NCBI GenBank assembly: GCA_015657645.1
Contig: JACDQK010000223.1
Span: forward strand, 1 to 38,022
DNA length: 38,022 nucleotides
Direction of reading: 5' to 3'
Origin: Novosphingobium sp.
GTDB taxonomy: Bacteria > Pseudomonadota > Alphaproteobacteria > Sphingomonadales > Sphingomonadaceae
Of this stretch, positions 15,357 to 18,280 are shown one piece after another (the stretch's first letter is position 1; each line of letters opens with the position of its first letter). Below the pieces are notes generated by a model. The model was not told where the DNA came from, did no database searches, and saw nothing but the letters and a program-made list of their open reading frames with translations. The position numbers and the translations under genes are program-made.

Positions 15357-16572
15357 TGAAGGTGAGCAAGGTTCTGGTGATCGGTGCGGGCGGGGTAAGC
15401 TCGGTCTGCGTCCACAAGATGGCGATGAACGCCGGGATTTTCAGCGAAATCCACCTGGCCAGCCGCACCAAGTCAAAGTGCGATTCCATTGCCGCTTCGG
15501 TCAAGGAACGCACCGGCCAGACCGTTGCGACCTATGAGATCGATGCCGAGGAAGTGCCGGCGCTGACCCGTCTGATCCAGCAGATCGGCCCCAAGCTGGT
15601 GGTCAATCTGGCGCTGCCCTACCAGGACCTCCCAATCATGGACGCCTGCCTCGCCGCCGGGGTCGATTACCTCGACACCGCGAACTACGAGCCTAAGGAC
15701 GAGGCCAAGTTCGAATACAAGTGGCAGTGGGCCTATCAGGACCGCTTCAAGGAAGAGGGCCTTATGGCGCTGCTCGGCTCGGGCTTCGATCCGGGCGTCA
15801 CCTCAGTCTTTGCGATGTGGCTCAAGAAGCACAAGCTCAAGACCATCCGCACGCTCGACATCCTCGATTGCAACGGCGGCGATCACGGCCAGGCCTTTGC
15901 CACCAACTTCAACCCGGAAATCAACATCCGCGAAGTGACCGCCCCGCGCGCCACTGGAACCAGGGTGAGTGGGTCGAAACCCCGGCAATGACGATCCGCC
16001 AGAACTTCGATTTCGAAGCGGTCGGGCCGAAGAACATGTACCTGATGTACCATGAGGAGCTGGAAAGCCTCGCCAAGTTCCTGCCCGAGCTGGAACGCGG
16101 CCGGTTCTGGATGACCTTCGGCGATGCCTATATCAATCACCTGACCGTGCTGCAGAACGTCGGCATGACCGGGATTGAGCCGATCGTGTACCAGGGCAAG
16201 GAAATCGTGCCGTTGCAGTTCCTCGCTGCTGTGCTGCCCAAGCCGGAAACGCTGGGTCCGACCACCACCGGCAAGACCAACATCGGCGATATCGCCACTG
16301 GCATGGCGCTCGATGGCTCGGGTGAGAAGACCTATTACATCTACAACATCTGTGATCACGAAGAGGCGTTCCACGAAACCGGGAACCAGGCGATCAGCTA
16401 TACCACTGGCGTTCCGGCAATGATCGGTGCGGCGATGATGCTGACCGGCGCCTGGCGCGGTGAGGGCGTGTTCAACATGGAGCAGATGGATCCCGATCCC
16501 TACATGGACATGCTCAACACCCAAGGGCTGCCATGGCAGGTCAAGGAACTGGCCGGGCCGCTGGACTTCTGA
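15357..16572 (+). pseudogene. Carboxynorspermidine dehydrogenase/synthase (saccharopine dehydrogenase family), interrupted by a -1 frameshift near 15945
   Basis: N-terminal half MKVSKVLVIGAGGVSSVCVHKMAMN...DYLDTANYEPKDEAKFEYKWQWAYQDRFKEEGLMALLGSGFDPGVTSVFA; C-terminal half continues in another frame (ARHWNQGEWVETPAMTIRQNFDFE...GPLDF). Adding one G in gccccgcgcgcc restores the frame. May be a sequencing error rather than a true pseudogene. Confidence 0.85.
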
Positions 16573-16587
16573 GGCGAAGAAAAAGGG

Positions 16588-16629
16588 GTTCACGCAGAGG
16601 CGCAGAGCAGAAAGTGGAGGCGCAGAGCG
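16588..16629. repeat. Left inverted repeat of the GxxExxY cassette
   Basis: gttcacgcagaggcgcagagcagaaagtggaggcgcagagcg; 38/42 identical to the reverse complement of 17023-17064. Confidence 0.9.
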
Positions 16630-16632
16630 GCT

Positions 16633-17022
16633 GTGATTTCTATCAACGAACTGAGTGAAATCGTCATTGCCGAAGCGATCGGGATCCATAAGGAATTTGG
16701 GCCGGGTTTGTTTGAATCTGTTTATGAGTCGGTGCTTGCCGGACGCTTGACGAAGCGTGGTCTGAAGGTCGCCCGGCAGGTTCAGGTTAAAGCCGTCTTC
16801 GACGGGGAGACCTTCGATCCGGCTTTCAAGATCGACATATTGGTCGAGGACCGATTGGTTCTCGAAATCAAGGCAGTCGAACAGCTGAGCCGCGCTCACG
16901 GCAAGCAGGTTTTGACCTATCTCAGGTTGCTCAAGCAGCCGGTCGGGCTGCTTCTGAATTTCTCGGAGGAGACGATGAAGGAAGGTATTCGGAGAGTAGC
17001 CAACGACTACCAACCCGAATAA
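16633..17022 (+). CDS. GxxExxY protein (PD-(D/E)xK nuclease-superfamily-like)
   Basis: Motif GLFESVY (GxxExxY) and FKIDILVEDRLVLEIKAVE (D...ExK core); GTG start 3 nt after the left IR and TAA directly abutting the right IR. Confidence 0.88.
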   Translation: MISINELSEIVIAEAIGIHKEFGPGLFESVYESVLAGRLTKRGLKVARQVQVKAVFDGETFDPAFKIDILVEDRLVLEIKAVEQLSRAHGKQVLTYLRLLKQPVGLLLNFSEETMKEGIRRVANDYQPE

Positions 17023-17064
17023 GCCTCTGCGCCTTCACTTTCTTCTCTGCGCCTCTGCGTGAAC
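17023..17064. repeat. Right inverted repeat of the GxxExxY cassette
   Basis: gcctctgcgccttcactttcttctctgcgcctctgcgtgaac; reverse complement matches 16588-16629 at 38/42 positions. Confidence 0.9.
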
Positions 17065-17080
17065 TAATCGGACCTCGAAA

Positions 17081-18280
17081 ATGGAAACCAGAGCTGGCGA
17101 TCCGGGCGCCTTTGCCAACTTCGACCTCAGCCGGGTCGATAGTCCTGCTTTCGTGGTCGATGCCGCGAAGCTGCGGGCGAACCTGGCCGTGCTGGCAGAA
17201 GTGCGCGACCGGGCCGGGATCAAGGTGCTGGCGGCGCTCAAGGCCTTCTCGATGTGGAAGGTCGCGCCGATCGTCGGTGAATACCTCGACGGGGTCTGCA
17301 CTTCGGGCCTGTGGGAGGCGCTACTGGCGGCCGAGCATTATCAGGGCGAGATCGCGACCTATTGTGCGGCCTACAAGGCGGACGACCTGCCGGAAATCTG
17401 CCGACTGTCGGATCATATCATCTTCAACTCGCCGACGCAGATTGCCCGCTTTGCGCCGCAGATCGAGGCAGCTCGGCAGCGCGGCGATACCTTCGACGTT
17501 GGGCTACGGATCAATCCGCTCCACGCCGAGGGCGAAGTGCCCAAGTATGACCCTTGCGCCCCGCACTCGCGGCTGGGCTTCCCGGCCGATCAGCTGACCG
17601 ACGAGCACATGGCGGGCGTCAACGGCCTGCACTTCCACACCCTATGCGAGCAGGATTTCGAACCGCTGGAACGGACCTGGCAGGCGCTACTACCGCGGAT
17701 CGAGCGGTTCCTGCCGCAATTGGAATGGCTGAACTTCGGTGGCGGCCATCACATCACTCGCGCCGATTACCAGCGCGATGAGCTGGTTGCGTTTCTGAAG
17801 GCGGTGAAGGCGCAGACTGGCTGCGAGATTTATCTGGAGCCGGGCGAGGCCGTGGCGCTCGATGCCGGGATCCTGGTCGGCACCGTGCTCGACCGGCATT
17901 GGAACGGCATGCCGATCGGCATCATTGACATCTCCGCCACCTGCCACATGCCCGACGTGATCGAGGCGCCCTATCGCCCGGCCATGCTGGGCGAACTGCC
18001 GCCGGTCGATACCGAGACCGATGAAGGCGCAGGCGGGGCAGTGCGGCTCGGCGGGCCGTCATGTCTGGCGGGCGATGTAATCGGGGACTATCGCTTTGCG
18101 AGCGGCCCGGAGATCGGTCAGCGCTTCGCCTTCCTCGACCAGGCGCATTACTCGATGGTCAAGACCACGACCTTCAACGGCGTGCCACTGCCCTCGATCT
18201 GGCTGTGGGACAGCGAGACCGACCAGCTCGAGTGCATCAAGCGCTTCGACTACGAGGACTTCCGCGACCGGCTGAGCTAG
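17081..18280 (+). CDS. nspC: Carboxynorspermidine decarboxylase
   Basis: Fold-type III PLP decarboxylase: VLAALKAFSMWKVAP, GVNGLHFHTLCEQ, LEWLNFGGGHHIT, GGPSCLAGDVIGDYRF; downstream of the dehydrogenase. Confidence 0.92.
   Translation: METRAGDPGAFANFDLSRVDSPAFVVDAAKLRANLAVLAEVRDRAGIKVLAALKAFSMWKVAPIVGEYLDGVCTSGLWEALLAAEHYQGEIATYCAAYKADDLPEICRLSDHIIFNSPTQIARFAPQIEAARQRGDTFDVGLRINPLHAEGEVPKYDPCAPHSRLGFPADQLTDEHMAGVNGLHFHTLCEQDFEPLERTWQALLPRIERFLPQLEWLNFGGGHHITRADYQRDELVAFLKAVKAQTGCEIYLEPGEAVALDAGILVGTVLDRHWNGMPIGIIDISATCHMPDVIEAPYRPAMLGELPPVDTETDEGAGGAVRLGGPSCLAGDVIGDYRFASGPEIGQRFAFLDQAHYSMVKTTTFNGVPLPSIWLWDSETDQLECIKRFDYEDFRDRLS
18184..18280 (+). repeat. Direct repeat copy 1: 3' end of nspC
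   Basis: 97 nt encoding PLPSIWLWDSETDQLECIKRFDYEDFRDRLS*; aligns without gaps to 20387-20483. Confidence 0.85.

Follow-up and report, generated by a model that had tools for sequence, protein, structure and literature searches.

GxxExxY nuclease genes framed by matched inverted arms probably belong to a widespread kind of miniature mobile DNA

What is a short gene, bounded on both sides by inverted repeats, doing between two polyamine genes of a Novosphingobium genome? By recounting the window, i.e. the whole 38,022-nt stretch of DNA analyzed here, we could confirm all coordinates and counts of the initial annotation (42-nt arms, 38/42 identity, the ORF and its spacings). By direct count, the left arm (16588-16629) is identical to the reverse complement of 17023-17064 at 38 of 42 positions, and a repeat search of the window found the pair 16588-16627/17025-17064, with 95% identity over 40 nt. 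The ORF starts 3 nt past the left arm and its TAA abuts the right arm; GGAGG in the left arm, 12 nt 5' of the GTG start, is a possible ribosome-binding site. Profile matches identified the upstream neighbor as a carboxynorspermidine synthase/dehydrogenase gene (NF043000) and the downstream neighbor as nspC (TIGR01047). The features are as follows:

16570..16572, + strand: TGA stop of the upstream carboxynorspermidine synthase/dehydrogenase gene, left insertion edge (empty site TTCTGATGG in L191)
16573..16587, + strand: left linker, 15 nt from the upstream stop to the left arm, missing from the empty site
16588..16629, + strand: left inverted arm, GTTC plus 8-nt-type units (sequence count and repeat search; recurs in 117/133 loci)
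16633..17022, + strand: GxxExxY ORF, 129 aa, GTG start (TIGR04256/PF13366; predicted PD-(D/E)xK nuclease fold)
17023..17064, - strand: right inverted arm, abutting the TAA of the ORF (sequence count and repeat search)
17065..17080, + strand: right linker, 16 nt, 5' of the nspC ATG (junction comparison)
17081..18280, + strand: nspC, carboxynorspermidine decarboxylase, its ATG being the right insertion edge

The inverted repeat (IR) score of this pair is 35. At random positions with the same geometry, drawn from the window and three samples of 250-400 kb, a score of at least 14 was reached in 0.2-0.4% of draws, and a single draw (0.07% of 1500), from the window itself, reached 35. The upstream gene is spread over two frames, with the break at 15940-15991 and NF043000 profile positions 3-201 and 206-403 on either side of it, which is either a frameshift or an assembly error.

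The window protein matched TIGR04256 (GxxExxY) with 124.5 bits for a cut-off of 35, and PF13366 (PDDEXK_3) with about 128 bits (128.1) for a cut-off of 22. By aligning 19 sequences, we found H19, D68, E78, K80, Q92 and Y96 to be invariant, and the D...ExK core of PD-(D/E)xK enzymes is intact in the window protein (D68, E78, K80). The top Foldseek match in the PDB of its AlphaFold2 model (pLDDT 94) was the Cas4 protein SSO0001 (E 6.7e-4), with weaker matches to archaeal tRNA-splicing endonuclease, AdnAB, lambda exonuclease and RecE; as modeled, the fold is that of a Cas4/RecB-like PD-(D/E)xK nuclease. A sequence search of the PDB detected no similarity to any solved structure. In Pfam, a search up to E=10 gave nothing apart from PF13366 and a match to Cas4 below threshold (PF01930, 17.9 bits, cut-off 22.7), with no match to PF04754 (Rpn); the weak profile matches are to Cas4-like and reverse transcriptase (RT)-associated PDDEXK families. 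None of the 129 residues is a cysteine, and the protein therefore has no Cas4-type Fe-S cluster. It is the only recognized gene product between the arms, where we found no DDE, serine or tyrosine transposase or recombinase. Among the cassette genes compared, dN/dS ranged from 0.04 to 0.21 (0.07 for the window against L033), values that speak for purifying selection on the protein, while synonymous sites are saturated (dS of 1.8 between the window gene and L033). The GxxExxY annotation is common, and no function for it is known from the searchable literature, in which we found passing mentions only and no printed repeats.

By comparing syntenic junctions, we could see that the cassette is an insertion inside a polyamine operon, as first proposed from the window sequence. 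In G253, the closest relative by nspC (94%), and in several other genera, the upstream stop and the nspC start overlap as TGATG without a cassette; therefore, the window carries an insertion of about 509 bp, including both linkers, between the TGA and the ATG of this ancestral arrangement. Most relatives lack the cassette at this junction. The sequence TRATCGGACC of the right linker is also found in two relatives, L033 and L367. In the tree, nspC-site cassettes form one clade (98/95) that spans several genera and is nested among fabD/fabG-site cassettes, so that the lineage switched site at least once; we infer one change from the fabD/fabG to the nspC junction, after which the cassette would have been inherited, lost and possibly transferred. 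In G271, the copy (L367) is frameshifted, and the flanks of the nspC junction are too diverged to define a target-site duplication. A recent IS-like burst of the gene-bearing form was not seen, gene copies within one genome being nearly all divergent, with few near-identical. Many unrelated inserts, such as small ORFs and GC-rich palindromes, were found at the same junction when about 95 genomes of the genus were compared (L191-L218, L361-L420); L374 has another ORF in addition to the GxxExxY cassette.

A GxxExxY protein is present in 41 of the 201 genomes of the host's family. We read the flanks of the genes in these genomes and at 80 loci that were found by scanning named genomes, among them Verrucomicrobiota, Acidobacteriota, Cyanobacteria, Bacteroidota, Chloroflexota, Planctomycetota, KSB1 and WOR-3. 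An IR score of at least 14 was reached at 117 of 133 scorable loci (88%), from more than 10 phyla, compared to the 0.2-0.4% at random positions. In a separate count, arms were found at 87.3% of 134 loci, against 18.7% when left and right flanks of different loci were combined and none for shuffled flanks. No IR was detectable at the remaining 16 loci, although 14 of them carry, on one side or on both, a motif resembling an arm, oriented as usual or the other way round. The arms begin with GTTC or GTTTC, their median length being 32 nt. Their self-identity peaks at a lag of 8 (0.46, other lags 0.23-0.33), each arm consisting of about three 8-nt units, RCRCnnAG, and a typical arm reads GTTC-ACGCGGAG-ACGCGGAG-ACGCGGAG. 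The spelling of the unit (CGCAGAG, CACGAAG, CGCTAAG, CGCCAAG, CGCAACG or CACAGAG) differs from locus to locus, yet it is the same in both arms of one locus. Moreover, the more similar two proteins are, the more similar are their arms (Mantel r=0.53, p=0.001, n=107; r=0.26 among pairs below 60% identity), which would be the case if a protein moved and changed jointly with its arms. The suggestion of a minimal cassette, in which a nuclease-like protein and its IRs belong together, is thus supported beyond the window. The upstream neighbor is on the same strand at 101 of 121 loci (the downstream one at 77 of 121), which is consistent with read-through expression. The hairpins gave no Rfam family match; phages gave no match, and plasmids gave hits in 8 of 72,556 records.

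Then, we compared the arms of 12 orthologous cassettes at the nspC junction. First, every left arm (12/12) was more similar to the right arm of its locus than to the left arm of any other, with a mean identity of 0.88 between own arms versus 0.65 between left arms of different loci, although the arms were trimmed here by within-locus alignment, which favors the own-arm result. Second, with fixed flank windows the median score was 33 for own arms versus 21 and 23, while at most loci the top-scoring left-left or right-right pair outscored the own-arm match, because such windows include homologous flank and gene sequence. Relatives with diverged IRs at the same site, which the initial annotation regarded as the mark of an old fixed gene, were indeed found, but the arms had not drifted apart: both arms of each locus had diverged jointly. 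This bears on whether the window copy might be a domesticated, immobile gene with a host role in DNA repair or defense and with arms that are mere relics. Strong purifying selection on the protein, the single clade at the nspC site over several genera, the weak Cas4-like and RT-associated PDDEXK matches and the window's own genome, where an arm search found no gene-less hairpins, would all suit such a gene. However, relic arms should drift apart, yet these match while synonymous sites are saturated; also, the junction of most relatives is without cassette and one copy is frameshifted. We therefore consider domestication unlikely.

The arms could alternatively be kept matched as a stem in the polycistronic mRNA, with pairing under RNA selection for processing, stability or gene isolation, as in the 23S rRNA intervening sequences, which share the outline (PMC4990558). 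The arms can pair across the ORF, and gene and upstream neighbor usually share a strand. However, among arm mismatches we counted 167 of wobble (G.U) type and 165 of A.C type, and this equality indicates that the match between the arms is not maintained by an RNA stem; the RNA-stem version of the earlier proposal was thus rejected. Furthermore, 35 of the 121 cassettes have a same-strand upstream gene and an opposed downstream gene, and gene-less hairpins are dispersed, all of which makes an RNA role improbable. The arms of one locus rather appear, from these sequence comparisons, to evolve together as DNA.

By searching the genomes of the host's family for the arm motif, with the genes' own arms discounted, we found a surplus of at least four in 25 of 40 genomes with a GxxExxY gene versus 14 of 161 without it (odds ratio 17.5, p=3e-12, a value that overstates independence since the 201 genomes are related to each other). 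A backward reading of the arm pattern gives no chance baseline, since CGCAGAG-type arms match it as well; the comparison was made instead between genomes that have the gene and those that lack it. Genome G110 has eight GxxExxY genes and 185 arm-motif matches. In a 400-kb sample of it, many of these matches pair as dispersed hairpins made of an arm, about 22 nt and an inverted arm. The arms of genes L056, L054 and L049 recur at gene-less places, with 0 matches for the reversed sequence. The L056 arm, GTTTCATAAAAGCCACAAAGGGAAAAAG, occurs 13 times in the sample, mostly bounding elements of about 237 bp that share the arms and a central GTCCCC..GGGGAC palindrome, their interiors being non-homologous between copies. 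Examples of gene-less elements in the 400-kb sample (L279-L298) are:

152664-152901: gene-less element
156370-156606: gene-less element
161213-161448: gene-less element
330211-330447: gene-less element

Two hairpins are nested in other elements (291,541-291,609 and 308,990-309,050). In G171, a relative of G110, we found arms at none of 11 orthologous intervals; four aligned G110 elements showed no visible target-site duplication, and the flanks of the two genomes are strongly diverged. IRs without a GxxExxY gene, which were expected to speak against a link between the two, thus do occur, but the arms of the gene-less elements match those of resident nuclease genes. Anabaena catenula has 91 and Dolichospermum 84 arm-motif matches. 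G157, G074 and G071 are rich in arms and have no detectable GxxExxY gene; these arms are either orphaned hairpins or accompany an enzyme too diverged for the profile. A separate palindromic repeat of about 90 bp, TTGCGAGCGCAGCGAAGCAATCC..., lies in L293 at about 16640-16745 (G110 296640-296745) and has about 20 or more copies in G171.

An unrelated enzyme, such as a REP-type Y1 transposase, might spread the hairpins and carry GxxExxY as cargo that happens to be bounded by two of them, the more so as some genomes have hairpins without the gene and single Y1_Tnp genes occur in 9 of 23 tested genomes, including G110 and G157. However, the hairpin-rich G068, G106, G044, G173, G195, G074 and G071 have no Y1_Tnp and the hairpin-poor G000, G021 and G033 do, a distribution over the 23 genomes on which we rejected a Y1/RAYT transposase as mobilizer. 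Captured cargo would also leave unexplained the near-universal framing across phyla and the tracking of nuclease sequence by arm spelling, and we give little credence to it.

The reading that we favor starts from what was observed, namely the gene-arm association, the matching of arms within a locus, the dialect-matched gene-less elements and a lineage-specific presence. Rather likely, there is a family of miniature mobile elements whose members with an enzyme are the GxxExxY genes, and whose arms also bound gene-less elements that depend on the nuclease; this kind of mobile DNA is probably both widespread and undescribed. An element would consist of an arm of about three 8-nt units, the nuclease gene and the inverted arm, with the nuclease usually made by read-through from the upstream gene. 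The nuclease would recognize the spelling of its own arms, in duplex or extruded hairpin DNA, and nick or trim them; host repair or replication would then copy arm to arm, so that both stay matched, and occasionally copy a hairpin into a new intergenic place. Gene-less elements would rely on the resident nuclease. The absence of a defined target-site duplication and of a recent burst, the arm-rich genomes without the gene, the window's own genome without gene-less hairpins, the 16 loci without a detectable IR and the non-homologous interiors speak against this reading. More tentatively, and with slightly less than even confidence, we propose a pan-bacterial class of minimal mobile DNA that has no recombinase: a stand-alone Cas4/RecB-like nuclease of about 129 aa would cut its own arms and leave the copying to host repair, and would in this way maintain and spread iteron-armed hairpins, the dialect of each locus co-evolving with its nuclease. 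A link of GxxExxY with gene-less hairpins and co-evolving arms would account for a large number of dispersed repeats and show that mobile DNA can work without a transposase. It would also offer natural experiments, with several nuclease dialects in one genome and arms kept matched at one fixed site.

Among known systems, REPIN/RAYT is by analogy the closest working one. Both have a resident enzyme gene flanked by a repeat and dispersed gene-less pairs of inverted repeats, a combination found for the GxxExxY family and not in the window's own genome. RAYT genes are distinctive and single-copy per genome (PMC3116915); GxxExxY genes are likewise individually distinctive and single-copy, and the four aligned G110 elements show no obvious target duplication. 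In contrast, the GxxExxY enzyme is a predicted PD-(D/E)xK nuclease and not a Y1/HUH transposase, its arms are 8-nt RCRCnnAG iterons that lack the tag, GTAG or CGTC, by which a REP palindrome is defined (PMC3733652), and gene-bearing cassettes occur in more than 10 phyla. Because the HUH enzyme and the tagged palindrome, both defining, are absent, we file these elements as a "resident enzyme plus dispersed hairpins" kind outside REPIN/RAYT. As with MITEs and their autonomous IS partners, terminal inverted repeats are common to gene-bearing and gene-less elements (the L056 and L054 dialects of G110), which are intergenic and lineage-specific; unlike MITEs, they have neither a DDE transposase nor a defined target duplication, and interiors are not homologous between copies. 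Cas4/RecB-type nucleases share the fold and the D...ExK...QxxxY core (top Foldseek match Cas4 SSO0001), whereas the window protein has 129 aa, no cysteines, hence no Fe-S cluster, and no CRISPR context. Rpn recombination-promoting nucleases (PF04754) are also stand-alone PD-(D/E)xK proteins linked to DNA mobility (PMC5350276), but GxxExxY belongs to a different Pfam family (PF13366).

Finally, 23S rRNA intervening sequences carry an S23 four-helix-bundle ORF within inverted repeats (PMC4990558). They resemble GxxExxY cassettes in having a short ORF between inverted repeats, a size of about 430-510 bp and a host transcript left unharmed; they differ in that the GxxExxY protein is another one, the cassette sits at a protein-coding junction and not in rRNA, and its arms show no sign of RNA-level constraint. 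In L188 (about 1450-1920), we observed a TIGR02436 four-helix-bundle ORF, apparently inside a 23S rRNA gene and framed by inverted GTGATCAG-type units of about 8 nt, with the architecture of GxxExxY cassettes and a different protein and unit.
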